Source: a virus
Strand: one strand, 5' to 3'
Virus record (IMG/VR): IMGVR_UViG_3300042868_002254
Span: 1-36,218 of that record
Length of the DNA stretch: 36,218 bases
The notes below the pieces were generated by a model. That model was not told the origin of the DNA, ran no database searches, and saw only the letters and a list, made by a program, of their open reading frames with translations. Position numbers and translations under genes: made by a program. Every line of letters starts with the position of its first letter. Positions within the stretch are counted from its first letter, which is position 1. Shown piece after piece: positions 1-36,218 of this stretch.

Positions 1-36
1 ACTAGCGATATTACAAAACAAATTAAGGAAACTAAA

Positions 37-1701
37 ATGACAAAAATGGATGCGGCAACAAAAAAGAAAGTTGCCACAAAACGAACTGAACTACGAACAA
101 CAAGAGGAGAACTGGCAGAACTTCAAGAGGCACGTGAGACAGATAACTTAACTGATGAACAGATTAACATACTAGACAGACGTATTGACTTTGCACGAAA
201 CAAGATTGAAATGCTTCAACTTGATTTACGAGAGTTGGGCGACATTGTAGAAGAAATCAATGAAATCACAAAAAAGTTAACTCAAAAAGAAGAAAACGAT
301 CTTATTGAAAAACTTATATCAGACAATCATTTAGGATATCTTGTACAAGACAATAAGTTTATCTATTGCTTGCAAATGGCAAATAAGAACTGTAATGGTG
401 TTATCAATCCACAGTTTCATACTGTTGATGCTACTAGAATAGTTCCTGTACTAAACAAGATGAGTAATCAAATACTTCATTCTGATACAGAACATGTTAA
501 ACGATTGTTTCAGCAGACTAAGAATGACTATTACAATATGACAGGTAGCTTCAATGATGAGAAGTGGGCTGACAATATGGTCTACAATAAGATGAAAATC
601 ATTAAGAACTTTTGGGTTCAGCCTATAGAATCAGAGAACTATAACAGTGACTTTGATTTCTTGTTATATTGTTTATGTGGTGGCAAAGAAGAAAACGTCA
701 AACACATTGAACAGTGGTTAGCATATAAATGGATGTATCCTCAACGTAATGCTAACATACCCAATCTTGACATAGGTGGTTATCCAGGTGGTAATGGTAA
801 AGGTCGTTTCATTGAACTATTAAAAACTATCTTTACGCATGGTTGTGTCGTACCTGCGGCATTAAAAGAATTGACAGATGGATTCAATGCAAGTTGGGAA
901 ACAGCAGTTATACTTTACTATGACGAACCTGCAAGTAATGAATTACCAGAAGGTAAATTAAAGAATGCAACTGGTGGTGAAGAACAGCGTATTGAAAAGA
1001 AGGGCGTTGATGCTTACACAGCGGATAGAAATTATAATATGATCTTTACTAGCAATAATCCTAATGGTGTTATTAAGTTAGCTGGTACAGGCGGATCTGG
1101 TGAAGATAGACGTTGGAGTGTTATGACTACTGACAAAGTTATGGTTGATGAGATTATGACAGCTGGATTAGACGAAGAAGGTGCTAAAGTCAGAACTAAC
1201 GAAATCAACAATCTATTAAAAGATCGCAGTGAAGTTGGTAAGTGGTTGTATCATCTTATCAAAAGACACGATACTGAAAATATGGGCATATTACGACCAT
1301 TGCATGGACAAGACTATCAAAAACGTTTTGAAGATCAGAAAGACACTGTACAGCTTGTATTTGATAGTTTAATGCCTACATTTAATCATTGTGGTGTTAT
1401 GACACTAGATGTACTCACACAAGCAGTACATGAGTTGACTAATAATACTAAATTAAGTAGTCAACAGATTGCTAAAAGATTTACTAGATATCTAGATCAG
1501 AGTAAGACAAAGTATGAGTATTTGAAGAAAGAAAGAATACATTTACTATACGATGGAAGTGTGAGCGAAACACTACAGAAGAACTGTTTTAGACTATCAT
1601 CAAGTAATACAAATTATGGTTTAGAGTATAAAATGTTTACTAATACAGTGCCTAACAAGAATACAAAGCTAGTTTCAGCAGATTTTACTATATCTATATA
1701 G
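37..1701 (+). CDS. Superfamily 3 replicative helicase (D5-like)
   Basis: Likely the ring-shaped ATPase that unwinds phage DNA at the origin. The N-terminus (about residues 8-85) is charged, helical and coiled-coil-like. The SF3 core follows: Walker A GYPGGNGKGRF with K255, Walker B ILYYDE with D296-E297, and the SF3 motif C FTSNNP around N340, then an arginine-rich segment (EDRRW) suited to an arginine finger. At 554 aa it is long enough for a helicase with regulatory ends, but I see no primase motifs in the N-terminal half. ATG at 37 has a good AAGGA ribosome site. The gene is followed directly by an array of inverted iterons at 1709-1836, which fits an origin-binding replication protein. 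Family assignment is from motifs only. What lies upstream is cut by the window edge. Confidence 0.85.
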   Translation: MTKMDAATKKKVATKRTELRTTRGELAELQEARETDNLTDEQINILDRRIDFARNKIEMLQLDLRELGDIVEEINEITKKLTQKEENDLIEKLISDNHLGYLVQDNKFIYCLQMANKNCNGVINPQFHTVDATRIVPVLNKMSNQILHSDTEHVKRLFQQTKNDYYNMTGSFNDEKWADNMVYNKMKIIKNFWVQPIESENYNSDFDFLLYCLCGGKEENVKHIEQWLAYKWMYPQRNANIPNLDIGGYPGGNGKGRFIELLKTIFTHGCVVPAALKELTDGFNASWETAVILYYDEPASNELPEGKLKNATGGEEQRIEKKGVDAYTADRNYNMIFTSNNPNGVIKLAGTGGSGEDRRWSVMTTDKVMVDEIMTAGLDEEGAKVRTNEINNLLKDRSEVGKWLYHLIKRHDTENMGILRPLHGQDYQKRFEDQKDTVQLVFDSLMPTFNHCGVMTLDVLTQAVHELTNNTKLSSQQIAKRFTRYLDQSKTKYEYLKKERIHLLYDGSVSETLQKNCFRLSSSNTNYGLEYKMFTNTVPNKNTKLVSADFTISI

Positions 1702-1848: not shown

Positions 1849-1882
1849 TCAAATACATTATAGAAAATTAAATACATATATG
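1849..1882 (+). promoter_or_regulatory. Two tandem TAAATACAT-type late-promoter-like boxes
   Basis: CAAATACATTATA begins at 1850 and TAAATACATATATG at 1869; the second runs into the ATG at 1880, so only the first could give a leader. They match the repeated motif found before other modules in the window, but the base before AAATAC is C in the first box, so this is a weaker match. Confidence 0.4.
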
Positions 1883-2263
1883 AAAACGAAAAGTTATATG
1901 AGATATCACCGTTACGATCAAAACAACGTCAAATACATTAAACGCTTTGAGCTTAATGATGTTGTGCCCACCGTTGCAGAGCCCGGCTTCACACAATGGA
2001 TTCGTGGTACAGGGCCACATAGTCCTGAAGCTTTATACAACGTTACTGAGGGACTGCGTAAAGCTTGTCTTGGCGTACCCAAAGCTCCAGAGACACGTGA
2101 GAAAATGCGTCTTGCTAAGTTAGGCATACCAAAAAGTCAAGAGCATAAAGATAGTATGCGTAAGAGTTGGTATAGACGTAAGGAGCTAGAATTAGCTGAA
2201 CGATATATAGTTGATGAAATACAATCCTCGCCAACTACATCTACAGTACCACAAATTTCCTAA
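1880..2263 (+). CDS. NUMOD3-type DNA-binding protein (cassette A)
   Basis: 127 aa. The middle carries tandem NUMOD3-like repeats (LRKACLGVPKAPETREKM, RLAKLGIPKSQEHKDSM), a helix-turn-helix-like DNA-binding module usually attached to GIY-YIG or HNH homing endonucleases. No nuclease domain is visible, so this may be a stand-alone regulator or the remnant of a homing endonuclease. The N-terminal part (YHRYD...VKYIKRFEL, then RGTGPHSPEALYN) is shared with the paralogue at 34340-34687, and that alignment supports the ATG at 1880. Its 3' end overlaps the zinc-finger gene at 2211, an arrangement kept in both copies. Confidence 0.6.
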   Translation: MKTKSYMRYHRYDQNNVKYIKRFELNDVVPTVAEPGFTQWIRGTGPHSPEALYNVTEGLRKACLGVPKAPETREKMRLAKLGIPKSQEHKDSMRKSWYRRKELELAERYIVDEIQSSPTTSTVPQIS

Positions 2264-2459
2264 GGATATTAAAGTTAGCGTCATCATTAAGTTTGATAAA
2301 AAATTAAATGAGTGGCAGTTTGCAACTTGGAAGTGCCAACACTGTGGCACTACCCTTAAGTTTGCAAGTACTATACTAAAGCATCAAAACAACTGCAAAG
2401 AACTAAATACAATTAAGAAAAAAGGAATACACGATGCCAATACAAGTAGTGATGATTAA
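2211..2459 (+). CDS. Small zinc-finger protein (cassette A)
   Basis: 82 aa. A CxxC...HxxxxC pattern (CQHCGTTLKFASTILKHQNNC is split between residues about 44 and 64) indicates a single C2H2/C2HC-like zinc finger. The paralogue at 34644-34916 keeps the spacing (CSICG...IPRHETTC). The gene overlaps the end of the NUMOD3 gene by about 50 bp, so the two are probably translationally coupled and may act together in DNA or RNA binding. The basic, lysine-rich tail is consistent with nucleic-acid contact. Function unknown. Confidence 0.6.
   Translation: MMKYNPRQLHLQYHKFPKDIKVSVIIKFDKKLNEWQFATWKCQHCGTTLKFASTILKHQNNCKELNTIKKKGIHDANTSSDD
2404..2415 (+). promoter_or_regulatory. TAAATACAATTA box inside the zinc-finger gene
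   Basis: It lies about 20 bp before the ATG of the 51-aa gene at 2434. In cassette B the corresponding gene (34968) has a perfect TATAAATACATTAT box at the same relative position, which supports a real, conserved promoter. Confidence 0.45.
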
Positions 2460-2589
2460 AGGTCAACGTATGTACCGTTATGGCGACAGTGGTAAGCCTT
2501 ACTTAAATCGTAGTGACGCTGAGAAACAAGCACAAGCAATACGTGCTAGTGGCTATCGTGAACCTAAAAAAGATATGAAAGGTAAATGA
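2434..2589 (+). CDS. Conserved 51-aa phage protein (cassette A)
   Basis: A 51-aa basic protein starting MPIQVVMIKGQRMYRYGDSG and ending in a KEPKKDM-like tail. By hand alignment 36 of 51 residues are identical to the protein at 34968-35123, which confirms that it is a real gene despite its length. It shares the pattern KxMYRxGDSG with the following 60-aa protein, so these two may also be distant relatives. The start overlaps the 3' end of the zinc-finger gene in a different frame. No known function; a small structural or DNA-associated protein is possible. Confidence 0.7.
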   Translation: MPIQVVMIKGQRMYRYGDSGKPYLNRSDAEKQAQAIRASGYREPKKDMKGK

Positions 2590-2590
2590 T

Positions 2591-2773
2591 ATGGCAACAC
2601 AACGAATGACTGTTGGTGGTAAAACAATGTACCGTGATGGTAGTAGTGAACGTATGTCACGTGATAAACCTAGCACTAAGAAAAAAGGTGCAGACGGTGC
2701 TGTATGTTGGGAAGGCTATCGCTTTGCAGGTACAGTAAATGGCAAAGACAAATGCGTTAAGATGAAAAAATAA
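2591..2773 (+). CDS. Small basic protein with CWEGY and CVKM ends
   Basis: 60 aa, strongly basic, beginning MATQRMTVGGKTMYRDGSS and containing two cysteines (VCWEGYRFAG, DKCVKMKK). The MYRDG segment resembles MYRYGDSG of the preceding 51-aa protein. It follows that gene by one base, so it is cotranslated with it. It has no counterpart in cassette B, where a 194-aa gene takes its place. I do not recognise the family. Confidence 0.55.
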   Translation: MATQRMTVGGKTMYRDGSSERMSRDKPSTKKKGADGAVCWEGYRFAGTVNGKDKCVKMKK

Positions 2774-2787
2774 AAGATAAGAAACAA

Positions 2788-3108
2788 ATGATTGAATACA
2801 CATACAAATTATACCGAGACGATGACGAACAGTTAGTAGTCACTGTAGACCCATTGGTTAAAGATATTGAAGCATCAATAGAAGCAATGATGAATATGAA
2901 TGTTGATGACTTAAGTGACGAGAACAAACATATCTTTGAGATGAAAATATTGGGCCTACGAACTATACATCAGTTCTTAGGTGCATTACAGCAAGAGCAA
3001 TACCTCAAAGAATATAAACAGGGTCTTACCACTGAGCTTAAGGGTCAGATTAACATTGACGTTAACGAAAGACTTGATGGCTTAACAAAAGAAAGCGTGG
3101 TGCATTGA
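2788..3108 (+). CDS. Conserved phage protein, 106 aa (cassette A)
   Basis: Acidic N-terminal half (TYKLYRDDDEQLVVTVDPLV) followed by a helical region with the well conserved block KILGLRTIHQFLGALQQE. A close paralogue lies at 35688-36011, with the same length, order and downstream neighbour. The stop codon TGA overlaps the next start (TGATG). The position in the run-up to terminase suggests a packaging or head-assembly accessory, but that is only context. No recognised domain. Confidence 0.7.
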   Translation: MIEYTYKLYRDDDEQLVVTVDPLVKDIEASIEAMMNMNVDDLSDENKHIFEMKILGLRTIHQFLGALQQEQYLKEYKQGLTTELKGQINIDVNERLDGLTKESVVH

Positions 3109-3476
3109 TGAGCGAGTTTAAAGGCATTATCGATAAGCCCTTTTACGTAGGGCACATAAAGAACTTTGACAAGATGGTAACAGAACTGTCGCCATTTATG
3201 ACTGAGATTGAGATCGATCAGTGCATAAGCTTTATGTTTACGTTGCAAGATACAAAGAATGATATCAATCCAAGTCCAGAAGATTGCAAGACGCAACTAC
3301 AGATTATGTTTGGCCGTGATAGATTTTTAGAATTAACGCAACAATGGGGCAAGAAGAATCAAAAGTTCCTAAGTGTGTTTGGTGCATTGAAGTATAAAGA
3401 CAAACGTGATGGCAAGTTCTATGACGGCCTTGACGAGACAGATAACGTTGATGACTACGAAAAGGTTTACATATGA
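3108..3476 (+). CDS. Conserved phage protein, 122 aa (cassette A)
   Basis: Starts MSEFKGIIDKPFYVGHIKNF. I chose ATG 3108, which overlaps the preceding stop, over an in-frame TTG at 3105 because the paralogue at 36013 starts at the same residue. Over the 68 codons of that paralogue inside the window, 61 residues are identical by hand count, the most conserved pair of the two cassettes. The protein is mixed alpha-helical with an acidic C-terminus (DETDNVDDYEKVYI). Function unknown. Confidence 0.7.
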   Translation: MSEFKGIIDKPFYVGHIKNFDKMVTELSPFMTEIEIDQCISFMFTLQDTKNDINPSPEDCKTQLQIMFGRDRFLELTQQWGKKNQKFLSVFGALKYKDKRDGKFYDGLDETDNVDDYEKVYI

Positions 3477-28353: not shown

Positions 28354-28788
28354 ATGGAAAAATTAATTGAAGCAATGAAGCGACTGTTCGCAACAAATTA
28401 TCAGTATTACGTAAAGGCTCATGGCTTTCATGTTAACGTTGTAGGCCCTGACTTTGTTCAGTATCATCAACTATTCAGTGAAGTATATGAATTAGCAGAC
28501 GATGCTACAGATACAATCGGTGAGCACATTCGTGTGTTGCAAGCTATTGCCCCATTCAGTTTAAAGCGTATCATGGAACTTGGTTCTATTAAGGATAGTG
28601 CTGAAAGACCAGAAGCTTTGAAAATGGTTAAGGATCTATTAATTGATAGCCAAACAGTTATGGATCATTATGAGGAAGTTCACGACATGGCAGTTGAAAT
28701 GAAGCAATATGGACTCATCAATTTTATTGAAGGTCAGATGGATGCCTTAGGTAAGATTATGTGGAAGTTGCGCTCAACAACGGAATAA
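28354..28788 (+). CDS. Dps-like ferritin-family protein
   Basis: 144 aa, all-alpha. The Dps signature is visible: HGFHVNVVGPDFVQYHQLF. Counted against the known ferroxidase pattern H-x11-H-x3-D-x10-D-x3-E, this protein has H26, H38, D53 and E57 at the right spacing. The middle aspartate is S42 with E43 beside it, so iron oxidation may be altered. Dps proteins form 12-mers that bind DNA or remove peroxide and iron. The gene has a promoter-like box and is followed by the candidate RNA at 28822. Confidence 0.75.
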   Translation: MEKLIEAMKRLFATNYQYYVKAHGFHVNVVGPDFVQYHQLFSEVYELADDATDTIGEHIRVLQAIAPFSLKRIMELGSIKDSAERPEALKMVKDLLIDSQTVMDHYEEVHDMAVEMKQYGLINFIEGQMDALGKIMWKLRSTTE

Positions 28789-29601: not shown

Positions 29602-30273
29602 TTATAATTTATATTTCTCGGTGAATTTTACTAAGTTAAAATCTTTTTTAGCGTGAGCAGCCAAATGAATAATATATTTACCTTTTCTATACCACGCACC
29701 CCAATCACTTGACAATTCTGTATAATTTTCACCTAACTCAACTACACAACGATTTAGTATACCTTGATCGTGTTGTGTGTTATATTCGTCAATATAATTC
29801 ATATACAATGGTCTAACTTTATTAATGAATGATTTATTAATTAACATTACACCACTACAAAATGGATTGTAATTTTCTGATGCGTGATATAACTTCAATA
29901 ATTTCTGTTTAATCTTTTTCGTGTATTCACTACTTGATGACCAATCCATATCACAAGGAGCACAAAATTCACTATCACTATACAATTCAAATATATTAGG
30001 ACAATCATTCAATACAATTGCATCACTATCTAAGTAAAGTATTTGGTCATAGTCTTCATACTCAAATAATTCAAGTCGTTGATAAATTGGATGCTTGTTT
30101 GGTAAAAAACTACAATCGGTTATTTGCTTGTAATCACTATTACATTTGTTAGCATATTTTATTGCTTGCCGTTCGCTCAATTGATACAAATCATTTTTAT
30201 AATGATATGTGCGTGAGGTTTCGTGCGTATTGATTACTGGATCAATATTCACTTGTAAAATTAGTCTTTTCAT
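29602..30273 (-). CDS. Glycosyltransferase, GT8-like
   Basis: 223 aa. The nucleotide-sugar and metal-binding DxD is in DQILYLDSDAIVLND, followed by FCAPCDMDW, the acceptor/loop region YNPFCSGVMLINK, HDQGILNR, and a late IIHLAAHAK histidine, all in the order of GT8-type enzymes (glycogenin/LgtC relatives). Retaining transferase for lipopolysaccharide or capsule sugars is the usual role; it could alter the host surface against competing phage. Overlaps the upstream gene by ATGA. Confidence 0.75.
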   Translation of the reverse strand: MKRLILQVNIDPVINTHETSRTYHYKNDLYQLSERQAIKYANKCNSDYKQITDCSFLPNKHPIYQRLELFEYEDYDQILYLDSDAIVLNDCPNIFELYSDSEFCAPCDMDWSSSSEYTKKIKQKLLKLYHASENYNPFCSGVMLINKSFINKVRPLYMNYIDEYNTQHDQGILNRCVVELGENYTELSSDWGAWYRKGKYIIHLAAHAKKDFNLVKFTEKYKL

Positions 30274-31154
30274 ATTCCCTCAAATAAACTTCTTAAATGA
30301 TTGTTAAAATTGCCATTCAATCTTAACACTTGTGGTCTTAACTTGTCGTTGAATGACTTGAATCGTTTCATCCAACTACCTTTACCACTTGTCTTTTGTA
30401 TTGGTAACTTAAACTTATGACTGATAAAATCGTGACCTTCTGTCGTGCGTTTTCTGCGACTATCACGGTCATTATTCCAAGTTGAGTTTGTAGCACCTTC
30501 TTCTTTGCGTATCAAATTCTTACAAATAAACACACCCATATTCTCATGTATCAACTGAATAGGAAAGTCTTGATCCTCACAAGCAATAATGCTACCATCA
30601 TCTTTGATAAAGTTTTCATCAAAGTATATTTCTTTGTTATGATGTTTCTTTAAGTTTTTTAGTATAAAGAAACCACTAGCAATAAAGCCTGGAAGCAATC
30701 TCCAAGACACTTCGTCATTTTTCTTGTTTAGTTCTAAATCTTTTGTGAATGGACTTGTTGCTGGATCTAGACCAATCAACATATCTACGTTCTCAAAGTT
30801 TTCAAATGGTATGTTTCTGATAATCTCAGCAAACTTATCATTTGCACCATACTTTTCGCCACTATACAAATAACAATCGTTATCTGCGAACACAGCAAAA
30901 TCTTCATCGCTATTGTAAAATTGATACAACAAAACATTTCGTGCTTGTATTGCTTTCAATACACTACCATTATGTTTGATGTACTCTACATTGTTTGTAT
31001 ATTGGTCGTCACGATAGTTCTGTGCTAGTACGACAGGTTTTAATGACGAACTAAAACACCACTCTAACTGACGCTGGTGTATTTCATAGCGTTTTTTAGA
31101 ATGTTCGTTATCACCAAACCAACTGATGATGTACATGTTGTTAAAGTTATTCAT
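30270..31154 (-). CDS. Glycosyltransferase-like protein (GT-A fold)
   Basis: 294 aa. I use ATG 31154, which overlaps the previous stop (TAATG) and has GGGAAAG upstream as a ribosome site; an in-frame ATG at 31169 adds five residues. FAVFADNDCYLY carries a DND metal-binding motif after a GT-A-like N-terminus (MYIISWFGDNEHSKKRY, KPVVLAQNYR), and ACEDQDFPIQLIHENM resembles the late ED motif region. Paired with the GT8-like gene, so both may act on the same glycan. Specific family not recognised. Confidence 0.55.
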   Translation of the reverse strand: MNNFNNMYIISWFGDNEHSKKRYEIHQRQLEWCFSSSLKPVVLAQNYRDDQYTNNVEYIKHNGSVLKAIQARNVLLYQFYNSDEDFAVFADNDCYLYSGEKYGANDKFAEIIRNIPFENFENVDMLIGLDPATSPFTKDLELNKKNDEVSWRLLPGFIASGFFILKNLKKHHNKEIYFDENFIKDDGSIIACEDQDFPIQLIHENMGVFICKNLIRKEEGATNSTWNNDRDSRRKRTTEGHDFISHKFKLPIQKTSGKGSWMKRFKSFNDKLRPQVLRLNGNFNNHLRSLFEGI

Positions 31155-31381
31155 TAATACTTTCCCCATTTCTCGTCATTAGGATTCTTCTCAAAGTATT
31201 CACAATACCATTCCCAACTACAACCTTGATGTTCTACAAGTTCTCGCAAAGTGTCCCAATGTGCATCTTCATATACATTTTCAAAGTATACATGCTTCAT
31301 AGGATCTTCAACGTTCCACTCTACATCATGTGGGTGTGTTTTACAATTATATTTTAATTTGTCAAACAAAGTTACTTCCAT
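31154..31381 (-). CDS. Small acidic protein, 75 aa, first gene of the leftward operon
   Basis: Aromatic and acidic (VEWNVEDPMKHVYFENV; SWEWYCEYFEKNPNDE) with one His/Cys group. First gene behind the minus-strand promoter at 31490-31462 and coupled to the glycosyltransferase-like gene through a TAATG overlap. No family recognised. Early, small and acidic, it could be a host-interaction protein, but that is only a guess from position. Confidence 0.55.
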   Translation of the reverse strand: MEVTLFDKLKYNCKTHPHDVEWNVEDPMKHVYFENVYEDAHWDTLRELVEHQGCSWEWYCEYFEKNPNDEKWGKY

Positions 31382-31975: not shown

Positions 31976-32004
31976 TTGACACTTAATACATCATCTGTTA
32001 TAAT
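31976..32004 (+). promoter_or_regulatory. Perfect sigma-70 promoter (rightward early)
   Basis: TTGACA (31976-31981), 17-bp spacer, TATAAT (31999-32004), with TGT immediately before the -10 (extended -10). Transcription would start near 32011. It drives the 70-aa gene and probably the polymerase. Confidence 0.92.
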
Positions 32005-32044: not shown

Positions 32045-32257
32045 ATGACTAAAACACTTACAACTTACGAAAAAGACATTGTTGACCATTTTTTAATTAA
32101 AAACGCGGATGAATTTAATTTGGTATGGTTCAATCACGCAATCGCAAACACATTACCAACTTGGAGATGTGAGCAATTGGTTAACACCAATGACTCACTT
32201 CAACTTACAGATGCATTCATTGAATATAAAAAAGATTTAACTGAAAACAAAGTATAA
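32045..32257 (+). CDS. Small early protein, 70 aa
   Basis: Start at ATG 32045 (MTKTLTTYEKDIVDHFL). The frame extends upstream to 31973, but that lies before the predicted transcription start, so it is excluded. A four-codon upstream mini-ORF (32034-32048) overlaps its start. Helical, with VWFNHAIANTLPTWRCEQLV. First gene behind the strongest promoter in the window. Its stop overlaps a late-promoter-like box. Family unknown. Confidence 0.6.
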   Translation: MTKTLTTYEKDIVDHFLIKNADEFNLVWFNHAIANTLPTWRCEQLVNTNDSLQLTDAFIEYKKDLTENKV

Positions 32258-32264
32258 ATACATT
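32253..32264 (+). promoter_or_regulatory. Late-promoter-like box TATAAATACATT before the polymerase leader
   Basis: Full TATAAATAC at 32253-32261, including the TAA stop of the 70-aa gene. A transcript from here would start around 32267 and carry the structured leader. Confidence 0.65.
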
Positions 32265-32266
32265 GT

Positions 32267-32354
32267 GCGTCATTTTTAGTACTTTTGACCGCATAGACAC
32301 TCCTAAGTCTTAGAAAGCCCCTGTCTGATAGCAGGGCTTTCACTTCTCTATCAG
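32267..32354 (+). promoter_or_regulatory. Structured 5' leader with predicted H-type pseudoknot
   Basis: A first stem pairs TGCG.TCA with TGA.CGCA (about 32267-32293, one bulge), then a small AGAC/GTCT hairpin. The main element is GAAAGCCC / GGGCTTTC (32313-32320 with 32334-32341). Its loop contains CTGATAG (32325-32331), which is perfectly complementary to CTATCAG at 32348-32354, giving a classical hairpin-loop-to-downstream pseudoknot. It ends about 40 nt before the polymerase ATG. No U-tract follows, so control of translation or termination are both possible. Confidence 0.55.
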
Positions 32355-32393: not shown

Positions 32394-34226
32394 ATGAATA
32401 TTTTTTTAACTCAAAAAGTCACGGCGCATGTCGGTATTGAGCATAGGCGCCTAGAACGCACTTTTTCAAAAAGTCACGGCGCTATAATAGATAATCTTTC
32501 AGATTACTCAGAAAACAAGAAAGAACATATGGAAAGAACTATGGGAGGCTCAGATATCAAGCTAGAAAGATACATCCGAGTGCCTCAAGAATTTCTGAAT
32601 AAGTTTCCAGAATTATCACTTGAAAAGGCAGAAAAACATTATAATACCTATCTATCAACAATACGCAAGTATTTGCTTAGACGACTTCCATATACTACAG
32701 AAAATTACATTCATTTGTCATTGAAAAGAATGGGTGATGAAATGTCAGATTTTCAATACAAAAACAACAGATATTATATTTGGAAAGAATTTAAAGACAT
32801 AAGACCTTTTTTCTATGCACCAGAAGATAAAAAAGGCAATGGCTATAAAAAGGGAAATCCATTTGAACTTAACTCAGAGGTATACATGTTCAATCAAAAA
32901 CTTATTGATCTATTAATTGACACTGTAGAAGTGAACCAATTGGTATCGTTATACTACGGTGATCTTACACCTGAAATGATTGATGCACTTGAAATAGTTC
33001 CGATTGATATGATTAGTTTAGAAAACTTTATTAATAACACTACACGTGAAATTGAAAATACTGATAAGAACTCAAAATATCAGGCAATTTTATATCGTAA
33101 TCTAAGACAAGCAAAGTATGTAAAAATAATAAGTAGTTTCTTTTATTCAGCGTATAATCAATATGTATTGCCACAGATACCAAAACCAAGTCCATACGGT
33201 CGTGTTTACTACAAGGGCATAAACATTCAAAACATGACCAAAGAAGTTAGAGTAGCTTGTTTAGGTGAACATTATGTTTATGATTTGAATGCCGCAATTT
33301 ACAGCATAAAGCTTATGATGGTCAAAAAGATATTGAAAGATAGCAACATTGATGATTTTGGGCATTTTACTTATACGAAAGAATATCTAGATTGGAAAAG
33401 TCCACTAAGAAAACAATTAGCAAAACATATTACTGCGTTTTACAATGGTGAAAAATTGGTTAAAGATGCTATTACAGCTATAGGTTTTGGTGCTAGAATT
33501 GGTGGTGGTAGTTGGTTAGTTGATGGCGAATGGCATACAACTAGCATTGAAGATATTATAATGAATCCAATAGATCGTAGTAATTTTATGAACGATCCAT
33601 GGATCAAGAAGTTTGTGAAAGAACAGCAAACAATGACTAAAATTATTGCTAATGATTTTATTGAAACACCTAGCTTTGTAGAATCAGTAATCAATGTTCC
33701 TAACATGTTTAAAAATAACACAATCCGCAAAAGTCAAGTAATGAGTTATGCATTCCAACATACTGAAAAAATGATTATGGATATGATTACAGAGAACATA
33801 CCTGTTATTGCTAGAGTTCATGATAGTTTCATTACAAAGAAAAAACTATCAAGCGACCAGTTGACTAACATCAAATATATATTGAACCAGTTAGATGATA
33901 GAATGACTATTGGTTGTGAGGAATTTCATTCTTGGATAGATGTTGAAAAATTTGACGATGAATCTGATATTGATGAAGCATTTAGTAGATTAACAGGTGT
34001 ACCTCACGTTAAACCTGTAATAAAATTAAAACATCAATATCAACCAAAACAAATTGAAGGCTCCTACGATAGTACATGTGATTATGGACAACGTGAATAC
34101 GATCCTGAAAACGATCCCTATATACAAGATATGAATGAACAGGAACGCAGAGAACATTATAGAATTGTAGGTTATATGCCTACAAGCAATATACCTAAAG
34201 ACATATTAGATATAATGACTAAATAA
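32394..34226 (+). CDS. Polymerase with family-A / single-subunit RNA polymerase motifs
   Basis: 610 aa. Motif A: VYDLNAAIYS with D297. Motif B: K357 eight residues before F365-G366 (VKDAITAIGFGARIGG), the spacing of K758 to Y766-G767 in Klenow. A helix with FQHTEKM leads into motif C, IPVIARVHDSFITKK (H476-D477). Spacings A-B about 60 and B-C about 120 are close to DNA polymerase I. HDSF is as in T7 RNA polymerase, while DNA polymerases have HDE, and the glutamate expected five residues after D297 is Ile. No 3'-5' exonuclease motifs are visible in the first 290 residues. DNA or RNA polymerase is therefore open. ATG 32394 follows AAGGAGA. Confidence 0.55.
   Translation: MNIFLTQKVTAHVGIEHRRLERTFSKSHGAIIDNLSDYSENKKEHMERTMGGSDIKLERYIRVPQEFLNKFPELSLEKAEKHYNTYLSTIRKYLLRRLPYTTENYIHLSLKRMGDEMSDFQYKNNRYYIWKEFKDIRPFFYAPEDKKGNGYKKGNPFELNSEVYMFNQKLIDLLIDTVEVNQLVSLYYGDLTPEMIDALEIVPIDMISLENFINNTTREIENTDKNSKYQAILYRNLRQAKYVKIISSFFYSAYNQYVLPQIPKPSPYGRVYYKGINIQNMTKEVRVACLGEHYVYDLNAAIYSIKLMMVKKILKDSNIDDFGHFTYTKEYLDWKSPLRKQLAKHITAFYNGEKLVKDAITAIGFGARIGGGSWLVDGEWHTTSIEDIIMNPIDRSNFMNDPWIKKFVKEQQTMTKIIANDFIETPSFVESVINVPNMFKNNTIRKSQVMSYAFQHTEKMIMDMITENIPVIARVHDSFITKKKLSSDQLTNIKYILNQLDDRMTIGCEEFHSWIDVEKFDDESDIDEAFSRLTGVPHVKPVIKLKHQYQPKQIEGSYDSTCDYGQREYDPENDPYIQDMNEQERREHYRIVGYMPTSNIPKDILDIMTK
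32411..32482 (+). repeat. 17-bp perfect direct repeat TCAAAAAGTCACGGCGC
   Basis: Copies at 32411-32427 and 32466-32482, 55 bp apart, with a GGCGCC-centred palindrome (AGGCGCCT, about 32445-32452) between. They sit in the first 30 codons of the polymerase gene, where codon constraint alone does not explain them. TATAAT follows the second copy. Possible binding site or a recent duplication. Confidence 0.65.
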
Positions 34227-34339: not shown

Positions 34340-34687
34340 ATGACACAAACATATAGCCGGTGGCATCGTTTTGATAGTAATGGTGTAAAATACATCAAGA
34401 AGTTTCAGTTAAATGAAAAGCCCAATCCAATCAATGAATATGGATACAGTGATTGGAATAGAGGCACGGGCCCACATAGTGCTGAAGCATTATACAATCT
34501 AACAGTTGCTGTACAAAAGGCATGCAAAGGCGTACCTAAAACACCGGCTACAAAACTAAAGATGCGTCAAGCCAAGCTTGGTAAACCAAAGACTGAACAA
34601 CATAAGTTAAATATGAAACTCAGTCACCAACGTAGGAGAAACAATGACGCTACAAGAACTACACAACAAAAACAACTTACATCCTGA
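34340..34687 (+). CDS. NUMOD3-type DNA-binding protein (cassette B)
   Basis: 115 aa paralogue of 1880-2263. Shared features: HRFDSNGVKYIKKFQLNE near the start, RGTGPHSAEALYNLT, then the NUMOD3-like repeats VQKACKGVPKTPATKLKM and RQAKLGKPKTEQHKLNM. No nuclease domain. The C-terminus differs (RTTQQKQLTS). It overlaps the zinc-finger gene by 44 bp, as in cassette A, and has GAGGAAG as ribosome site. Confidence 0.6.
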   Translation: MTQTYSRWHRFDSNGVKYIKKFQLNEKPNPINEYGYSDWNRGTGPHSAEALYNLTVAVQKACKGVPKTPATKLKMRQAKLGKPKTEQHKLNMKLSHQRRRNNDATRTTQQKQLTS

Positions 34688-34916
34688 ACATAGATATTGC
34701 TATCTTGTACATCAGTATGATAATAAAACAAAAGAATGGAAGTTCAAACACTATAAATGTTCAATTTGCGGTACAAGCATTAAACATGCAAGTACAATAC
34801 CAAGACATGAAACTACATGTAGAATAACAGTCAGACAGCAAGATAAAAGAGTCAAAGAGCCTGAAGTTATCATTACAACAAAGGGCATGCCTTGGAGTAA
34901 AAAATACGACATTTAA
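34644..34916 (+). CDS. Small zinc-finger protein (cassette B)
   Basis: 90 aa paralogue of 2211-2459: CSICGTSIKHASTIPRHETTC carries CxxC and HxxxxC at the same spacing (the motif is 21 residues; key residues are the two pairs). The N-terminus differs (MTLQELHNKNNLHPEHRY), with AGGAG just before. The basic tail suggests nucleic-acid binding. Function unknown. Confidence 0.6.
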   Translation: MTLQELHNKNNLHPEHRYCYLVHQYDNKTKEWKFKHYKCSICGTSIKHASTIPRHETTCRITVRQQDKRVKEPEVIITTKGMPWSKKYDI

Positions 34917-34936
34917 ACGTGTTATTTTAATAAAAA

Positions 34937-34950
34937 TATAAATACATTAT
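34937..34950 (+). promoter_or_regulatory. Late-promoter-like box TATAAATACATTAT
   Basis: Perfect TATAAATAC at 34937-34945, 23 nt before ATG 34968, with an AAGGAA ribosome site. The cassette A equivalent is at 2404. Confidence 0.65.
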
Positions 34951-34967
34951 ACACAAGGAATTAACAG

Positions 34968-35123
34968 ATGCCTATACAAACATTAACAATCAAAGGCGAG
35001 AAGATGTATCGTTGGGGCGATAGTGGTAAACTATACCGTAATTGCAGTGACGCAGAAAAGCAAGCAACTGCGGCGTATGCGTCAGGATACAAGGAACCTA
35101 AGAAAGACATGCCTAACAAATGA
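34968..35123 (+). CDS. Conserved 51-aa phage protein (cassette B)
   Basis: Paralogue of 2434-2589, with 36 of 51 residues identical by hand (MPIQ, MYR.GDSGK, SDAEKQA, ASGY, EPKKDM). Here the ribosome site and promoter-like box are stronger than in cassette A. Overlaps the next gene by four bases (ATGA). Function unknown. Confidence 0.7.
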   Translation: MPIQTLTIKGEKMYRWGDSGKLYRNCSDAEKQATAAYASGYKEPKKDMPNK

Positions 35124-35704
35124 ACATTGCTTGCGTTATTGGTAACGGCACTAGTCGTAAACAGTTTGACCTACATTGCATAAACGCAACTATGAAGACA
35201 TATGGCTGTAATGCATTGTACAGAGAATTTATTCCAGACGTATTAATAAGCATGGACATTTTTATGGTTTGTGAAATCATTGAGAATGACATACACAGAC
35301 AAAGTAAATTTTACACACAGCATTGTAATAAAATGGACGAACTTGCAGAGATAGGGGAACCTATACATTTCTGTAAAATTGAACGTTCTACACAAGATAG
35401 TGGTACAAGTGCAATAGAACTTGCATCAATGAATAATGATGTTGTATATTTGATTGGCTTTGACTATGACACTGGTAACGGAATATTACCTAATGTATAT
35501 CATGGCAGTAAGAATTATGCACGTAGTAGCTGTATCCCAGCTGCCGCAGACATGGCAAACAGATGGAAACAAAGACTACGAAAATTAGTAAAAGAGTATC
35601 CAAACACACAATTCATTAGAGTAAACGCTAGTAACACTGAAGCAACAAATTATAGTGAAATAACCCCCGAACAATTTAAGGAAATATATGACTCAAGAAA
35701 TTGA
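35120..35704 (+). CDS. Rossmann-like protein resembling DUF115/GT42-type transferases
   Basis: 194 aa. IACVIGNGTSRKQFDL is a nucleotide-loop-like opening (GNGxS), followed by TYGCNALYREFIPDVLISMD, SGTSAIELASM and VVYLIGFDYDTGN. This order (GNGPS-like, N...D.l, SG.aA..lA, iyLiGfD) is what I know from motility-associated DUF115 and sialyltransferase-like (GT42) proteins and from small phage homologues. Substrate unknown. It occupies the slot held by the 60-aa gene in cassette A, so the cassettes differ by an exchange here. Confidence 0.5.
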   Translation: MNIACVIGNGTSRKQFDLHCINATMKTYGCNALYREFIPDVLISMDIFMVCEIIENDIHRQSKFYTQHCNKMDELAEIGEPIHFCKIERSTQDSGTSAIELASMNNDVVYLIGFDYDTGNGILPNVYHGSKNYARSSCIPAAADMANRWKQRLRKLVKEYPNTQFIRVNASNTEATNYSEITPEQFKEIYDSRN

Positions 35705-36011
35705 ATACACGTACAAACTGTACAGAGACAACGAAGAACTTGTTGTTACAGTAGACCCATTGGTCAAAGACATTGAAATCTCCATTCAGAAAATGATGGA
35801 CATGGACATTGAAGAACTAAGTGATGACAACAAACATTTGTTTGAAATGAAGATCCTAGGTCTACGAACCATTCATCAGTTCTTAGGTGCATTACAGCAA
35901 GAGAACTATCTGAAAGAATACAAGAGTGGTATGACTACTGAATTAAAAGGTAAGATCAACATTGATGTTAATGAACGACTAGATGGCTTAACACAAGGAA
36001 CGGTACATTGA
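35688..36011 (+). CDS. Conserved phage protein, 107 aa (cassette B)
   Basis: Paralogue of 2788-3108 with the same layout: acidic N-terminus (YTYKLYRDNEELVVTVDPLV split at the strand turn), DKxHLFEMKILGLRTIHQFL block and ERLDGLT near the end. Starts inside the end of the preceding gene with AAGGAAAT as ribosome site. Function unknown. Confidence 0.7.
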   Translation: MTQEIEYTYKLYRDNEELVVTVDPLVKDIEISIQKMMDMDIEELSDDNKHLFEMKILGLRTIHQFLGALQQENYLKEYKSGMTTELKGKINIDVNERLDGLTQGTVH

Positions 36012-36012
36012 T

Positions 36013-36218
36013 ATGAGCGAATTCAAAGGAATAATTGACAAGCCCATGTATGTTGGGCACATAAAGAACTTTGACAAAATGGTCACAGAACTTAGTCCAT
36101 TTATGAATGAGTACGAAATAGACCAATGCATTGGCTTTATGCACACATTGAAAGATACTAAGAACGATATCAATCCTAGTCCTGAAGATTGCAAAACACA
36201 ATTGCAAATCATGCTTGG
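36013..36218 (+). CDS. Conserved phage protein, partial at window end (cassette B)
   Basis: Only the first 68 codons are present. Starts MSEFKGIIDKPMYVGHIKNF; 61 of 68 residues match the protein at 3108-3476. By analogy with cassette A the full protein should be about 122 aa and be followed by the small-gene series and possibly terminase. The edge cuts this off. Confidence 0.7.
   Translation, partial: MSEFKGIIDKPMYVGHIKNFDKMVTELSPFMNEYEIDQCIGFMHTLKDTKNDINPSPEDCKTQLQIML

Follow-up and report, generated by a model that had tools for sequence, protein, structure and literature searches.

A compact exonuclease-less polymerase with a predicted family-A fold takes the place of primase-helicase modules at a phage replication locus

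Among the closest described systems is CCPol of SCCmec, an exonuclease-less A-family polymerase which, together with a partner, MP, synthesizes DNA primers de novo (Bebel et al., 2020, PMC7581432). In other SCC elements the CCPol locus is taken by a module unrelated to it; CCPol itself has its own MP and a helicase (Cch2), and it keeps the equivalents of E710 and F762 (E174 and F225) (PMC7581432). In virioplankton groups the 762-equivalent is Phe, Tyr or Leu (PMC6302109). Here we study a polymerase gene in a 36,218-nucleotide stretch of viral DNA (IMG/VR record IMGVR_UViG_3300042868_002254, hereafter the window). Compared by description, this gene resembles the CCPol-MP system in appearing to encode an exonuclease-less polymerase of A-family fold, in its place at the replication locus of a mobile element and in the exchange of modules there. 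However, the window polymerase keeps neither the E710 nor the F762 equivalent, the latter being Thr (T361).

The wider comparison is with family-A DNA polymerases, with T7-like RNA polymerases and with primase-helicase modules. Five residues after the motif-A aspartate, DNA polymerases have Glu and RNA polymerases have Gly, while a motif-B Tyr is found in both. The Gln that precedes motif C is a DNA-polymerase residue (T7 RNA polymerase has His784 there), and the extra residues of T7 RNA polymerase between motifs B and C form its promoter-reading specificity loop. T7-like RNA polymerases have the same superfamily palm as the window polymerase and share its HDSF form of motif C. The modules of PrimPol (PF09250) and SF3/DUF5906 helicase, known from phages and satellites, occupy the same locus in sister phages behind the same kind of leader, but their fold is unrelated and they consist of two genes rather than one. 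We found no description in the literature of this polymerase group or of the exchange of these modules.

The polymerase reading frame has no internal stop, and its features, all on the plus strand, are as follows.

32394..34226, plus strand: polymerase gene of 610 aa with a divergent A-family fold and without an exonuclease domain (from the reading frame, its conservation and the predicted fold)
33201..33203, plus strand: codon of R270 in a GR motif, followed by Q279-N280 (LQN-like); invariant, aligned to TGR...NLAQIP of T7 gp5 (Klenow R668 region)
33282..33284, plus strand: codon of D297, motif A, with I302 at D+5 in place of the DNA-polymerase Glu
33462..33491, plus strand: K357 to F365-G366, motif B, with T361 as the 762-equivalent and F365 as the Tyr766/Tyr639-equivalent
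33756..33758, plus strand: codon of Q455, invariant, aligned with the DNA-polymerase Gln (T7 gp5 Q615, Klenow Q849)
33819..33824, plus strand: codons of H476-D477, motif C (HDSF)

The original prediction assigned D297, K357, F365-G366 and H476-D477 to motifs A, B and C with the spacing of DNA polymerases. Both the positions and their order hold, the spacing agrees, and all of these residues are invariant in a 14-member alignment. A first search yielded homologues in five further IMG/VR contigs at 60-69% identity, and the relatives in a fuller set are 27-68% identical to the window polymerase. With four very distant homologues added (from two Polaromonas plasmids, Microcystis phage Ma-LMM01 gp030 and Desulfovibrio phage 7757), the invariant residues, 14 overall, are R270, Y272, Q279, R286, L290, D297, K357, A362, G366, A367, Q455, E458, H476 and D477. 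As aligned, this set includes the palm residues of the Pol I/T7 RNA polymerase superfamily in the correct order. The named homologues (A0A6J5NAK1, Ma-LMM01 gp030, WP_181374945 and WP_181377809 of the Polaromonas plasmids, and the protein of Desulfovibrio phage 7757) share the invariant residues where aligned, and their annotation, if any, is hypothetical or a weak Clp_N match. The family is spread over several phage groups and plasmids, unannotated and under the Pfam thresholds.

Searches with the single protein against Pfam, PHROGs and PDB sequences gave nothing usable. The Pfam search found no exonuclease domain, as had been predicted, nor any other Pfam domain, and PF00476 stayed below its gathering score for every family member tried. 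A match to PHROG 11965 (1.7e-5) leads to a PHROG without function. Two scans of genome contigs returned no relatives, and once the distant homologues are included the alignment diverges too much to be scanned with. Searches of the phage records turned up no polymerase of a known RNA or DNA family, the one for PF00940 having been run without a positive control. Two observations concern the ends of the protein. The C-terminal tail (DDESDIDEAFSRLTG...EYDPENDPYI...EHYRI, 33939-34223) is strongly conserved, is predicted with low confidence and is missing from some relatives; a partner-binding role for it is possible. In L121 (2730-) and L122 (3511-) the putative translation extends upstream of the core into N-termini with repeated SATN/SEATN-like peptides.

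To which polymerase class does this protein belong? An AlphaFold2 model built from 14 homologues has a mean pLDDT of 69 and a pTM of 0.61, with residues 180-510 mostly at 80-92 and a weaker stretch near residues 361-390; an earlier one, based on 6 sequences, was of poor quality (pLDDT 57) and was left out of the fold searches. A structural search of the PDB lists 39 matches at E<=1e-3, and each of them is a family-A DNA polymerase. A second structural comparison places Pol theta at Z 16.2 (rmsd 3.8, 280 residues aligned, model residues 198-513), followed by Pol nu at 15.4, T7 DNA polymerase at 15.2 and Klenow at 14.8, so that the predicted core shared with these enzymes spans about 275 residues at Z 14-16. 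No solved RNA polymerase is among the structural matches listed, and the best match among viral structures is A0A6J5NAK1, from an uncultured Caudovirales. The palm of the Pol I/T7 RNA polymerase kind, which had been proposed from the letters of the DNA, is therefore supported by the predicted fold and, as follows, by profile alignment.

Aligned by hhalign to seven DNA polymerases, the plasmid/phage branch of the family reaches a probability of 80 (E 1.4e-5, score 54.0, 198 columns), its GR/LQN, A, B, Gln and C motifs all lining up with theirs, against a score of at most 25 in nulls made by permuting columns and by reversal. Against six T7-like RNA polymerases the same branch scores 19.5, inside its own null. 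The window branch alone gives no significant score with either class. It forms one family with the plasmid/phage branch (probability 98.9, E 3.6e-17), and its link to DNA polymerases therefore runs through that branch and through the fold. Spacing points the same way. The window polymerase has 60 residues from D to K and 119 from K to H (43-64 and 98-149 across the family), compared with 47-53 and 116-131 in three DNA polymerases measured and 71-94 and 160-180 in three T7-like RNA polymerases measured. With the interval from B to C some 40-60 residues shorter than in the RNA polymerases, there is no room for a specificity loop.

The individual residues give a more mixed picture. The window polymerase has the order and spacing of GR/LQN, A, B and C seen in family-A DNA polymerases and the same Gln before motif C, but it differs from them in having Ile for the motif-A Glu (I302), Phe for the motif-B Tyr (F365) and Ser for the motif-C Glu (S478), all of which count against a DNA polymerase. 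The replacement of the motif-A Glu by Ile had been noted in the original prediction and is confirmed, the residue being Val or Ala in relatives. The absence of this Glu and the presence of HDSF could both be taken to favor an RNA polymerase. HDSF is indeed present in the window, but relatives have HDAF, HDCV, HDAL or HDAI, the distant homologues have HDGF, HDGL or HDGA, and HDSI is found in a Staphylococcus phage enzyme whose annotation is DNA polymerase A; because the third residue of motif C varies in this way, HDSF is unsafe as a mark of RNA polymerases. Nor are the T7 RNA polymerase residues found, with Ile302 in place of Gly542 and Gln455 in place of His784; and since F365 is the counterpart of both Klenow Tyr766 and T7 RNA polymerase Tyr639, the RNA-polymerase Tyr is absent as well. 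Judged by alignment, the active-site set matches neither class completely. Our best reading is of a compact polymerase that lacks an exonuclease and is built on a family-A thumb-palm-fingers core, its branch being deeply divergent and unrecognized by Pfam.

Now we consider where the gene lies. In a survey of eighty TerL-related contigs, we find a single exchangeable replication slot bounded by a ferritin-like gene and a gene that we call A. The slot is filled by the polymerase in G001, G003, G012, L003, L005, L006, L016, L099 and L121-L124. In L008-L013, L045, L056, L059 and L067 it holds a PrimPol (PF09250, E 1e-12 to 7e-16) together with a helicase of the SF3/DUF5906 or DUF3987 kind, although for L013 the helicase end alone is visible. 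A Toprim-like (primase-like) protein with an SF3/DUF5906 helicase takes the slot in L063. The remaining occupants are a protein of 243-277 aa (the 250-aa protein; L077, L078, L090, L097, L101, L109, L111 and L113, for example L113:5815-6582) and one of 401-416 aa (the 410-aa protein; L083:410-1615 and L107:4698-5948). Neither has a recognized domain, and the 250-aa protein is a candidate for a new initiator family. Polymerase contigs carry the same neighbor genes as PrimPol contigs. Two of the main modules occur together in the window alone among the contigs surveyed, PF09250 and DUF5906 genes being absent beside the polymerase in every other contig. In G001 and in G003, a 35.5-kb contig with a 25-bp terminal repeat, the polymerase is present and no other replication gene is recognized. 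Since the polymerase is found regularly where other phages have primase-helicase modules, it is most simply a replication gene, and we consider it likely that it is a DNA polymerase of A-family fold that works in phage replication. The ferritin-like gene just ahead of the slot (28354-28788; PF00210, E 1.3e-14) is kept in many of these phages.

The leader ahead of the gene is also shared among slot types. The features of this region, with leaders of other contigs, are as follows.

31976..32004, plus strand: sigma-70-type promoter TTGACA-17-TATAAT, 12/12, the sole perfect site in the window
32045..32257, plus strand: 70-aa reading frame between promoter and leader, with a counterpart (35% identical) similarly placed in PrimPol/SF3 phage L008
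32253..32395, plus strand: structured 5' leader, common to all replication-slot types
32254..32261, plus strand: ATAAATAC motif at the leader's head, also found ahead of other replication modules
32313..32354, plus strand: hairpin GAAAGCCC/GGGCTTTC of the leader; its loop, CTGATAG (32325-32331), forms a pseudoknot with CTATCAG (32348-32354)
L002:2102-2229, L005:9842-9976, L008:3312-3440, L009:4698-4830, L083:272-409, L113:5670-5814: leaders in other contigs

The host-type promoter of the original prediction, 0.4 kb upstream of the gene, is confirmed, and between the two lie the 70-aa reading frame and the leader, 140 nt of structured RNA. The leader that lies behind this promoter also occurs in phages with other modules in this locus. 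Its hairpin loop pairs with bases that follow 4-6 nt past the stem, and all 16 of the leaders compared, which represent five slot types, form this pseudoknot with differing sequences (CTGATAG/CTATCAG, TTAGACC/GGTCTAA, ATGATAG/CTATCAT, TCTGACGG/CCGTCAGA, TTAGCG/CGCTAA and others). Shuffled sequences reach the observed pseudoknot score in 2 of 640 cases, a test that somewhat overstates the case because the leaders were picked partly for this pattern; stems and loops that change while the predicted pairing is kept are the better evidence. The leader has no Rfam match. An upstream CTCCTAA-like segment could pair with the Shine-Dalgarno region, but the length of this match is equalled in 131 of 3000 shuffles and the pairing is suggestive only. 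The leader is possibly a regulatory RNA that controls the replication genes.

The window itself raises the question of how it comes to hold two of the main modules, which lie apart from one another.

1..1701, plus strand: alternative replication module, with the last 12 codons of a PrimPol (2-40) and an SF3/DUF5906 helicase (37-1701), apart from the polymerase
1880..3476, plus strand: genes A, B2, D and E, 3' of the SF3 version
34340..36218, plus strand: second copies of A, B2 and D and the start of E, 3' of the polymerase

Since A, B2, D and E are repeated at both ends, the window holds two versions of one locus, ordered PrimPol end-SF3-A-B2-D-E on the left and polymerase-A-B-C-D-E start on the right. 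The E copies at its two ends are identical at 61 of 68 residues, and the left version is nearest to the PrimPol-SF3 phage L008 (92-98% for most of its proteins). Most simply, two phages that occur together were probably joined into a chimaera during assembly, the alternative being a genuine phage with two modules. In either case, finding polymerase and SF3 in one contig is no evidence that they function together. The suggestion of a divergent DNA polymerase paired with the SF3 helicase therefore survives in its first half; the SF3 helicase belongs with PrimPol to the alternative occupant of the same locus. Two side observations concern the surrounding genes: a gene pair near the slot (29602-31169, minus strand) has the look of sugar transfer and has no counterpart in the three other genomes, and gene C (35120-35704, plus strand) weakly matches a PHROG of alpha-2,3-sialyltransferase.

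As we picture its action, the polymerase would be expressed from the slot promoter by way of the regulated leader and would work in the phage's own DNA replication, standing in for the PrimPol-helicase module. It would probably extend primers with dNTPs by two-metal catalysis at D297 and D477, with K357 gripping the incoming nucleotide and R270, Q455 and H476 the primer terminus, while unwinding would be left to the host or to an unrecognized partner. Because a primase-polymerase is what it replaces, it may also be able to begin strands de novo, in the manner of CCPol with MP; in the polymerase operon we identify no obvious small MP partner or helicase. That one A-family-fold polymerase replaces the whole PrimPol-helicase module through de novo DNA priming of its own is an idea we put forward tentatively, as a possibility rather than an expectation. 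Such an enzyme would be a primase-polymerase that belongs to neither the AEP nor the DnaG family. Its pocket for sugar selection would be hydrophobic (Ile/Val plus Phe), a feature not shared by known A-family enzymes, and we expect so bulky a pocket to exclude ribose. The exchange between this gene and PrimPol-helicase modules in otherwise similar phages opens the question of the smallest toolkit for starting replication, and, being a natural exchange, it asks whether an A-family polymerase alone can substitute for a primase.

Alternatively, the polymerase could make RNA for replication, as a primase or an origin-transcribing enzyme that primes the host replisome. T7 and mitochondrial RNA polymerases do prime replication, the polymerase takes the place of a PrimPol-containing module, and Ile302, Phe365 and Ser478 are non-canonical for DNA polymerases. 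Yet residue 302, being beta-branched, can be expected to keep out ribose as a steric gate, and the nearest fold and profile are those of DNA polymerases, so we regard RNA priming as unlikely. We think it very unlikely that the protein is an accessory polymerase for repair or translesion synthesis, like Pol theta or Pol nu, with the true initiator being another, unrecognized gene. Pol theta and Pol nu are its best structural matches and it has no proofreading domain; a homologue also adjoins RepA in one Polaromonas plasmid, so that an accessory role is possible there. In the phages, however, the polymerase stands in for entire replication modules, with the same leader ahead of it, and no other replication gene is recognized in G001 or G003. 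We therefore retain a replicative DNA polymerase as the preferred reading.

The final proposal is one of the two explanations in the original prediction: a single-subunit phage RNA polymerase, expressed from the host promoter, that transcribes phage genes in the fashion of T7 from a motif, TAAATAC, represented by ATAAATAC. The strong host-type promoter upstream of the gene would fit, as would the distribution of the motif. While ATAAATAC is modestly above chance (8 against 3.6 expected), TAAATACA occurs 10 times on the plus strand and 0 times on the minus strand (3.0 and 1.5 expected), a strong strand bias, and has an extended consensus, TAAATACA(T/A)TA, that is intergenic and lacks a -35 element.

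1868, 2403, 6670, 8372, 12047, 19836, 22542, 28329, 28811, 32254, 34309 and 34938, plus strand: TAAATACA(T/A)TA sites

But in related contigs the motif is no less dense when the slot has another occupant (per 10 kb of plus strand, 2.0 with the polymerase, 2.6 with PrimPol-helicase and 2.9 with the 250-aa protein), and in L011 and L113 the entire locus is covered, the polymerase is absent and the motif is kept, from which it follows that TAAATAC is independent of the polymerase. Lacking equivalents of Gly542, Tyr639 and His784, space for a specificity loop, a profile match and a promoter motif linked to its gene, the window polymerase is probably not a T7-like RNA polymerase, and transcription of phage genes from TAAATAC by this enzyme is a highly improbable reading. 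For the motif itself, a sigma-70 promoter with a -35 element was rejected since there is no TTGACA signal, and a T4-late-type promoter served by a gp55-like sigma is not favored, no sigma family appearing among the ORFs scanned. In its letters, TAAATACA(T/A)TA resembles T4 late promoters.
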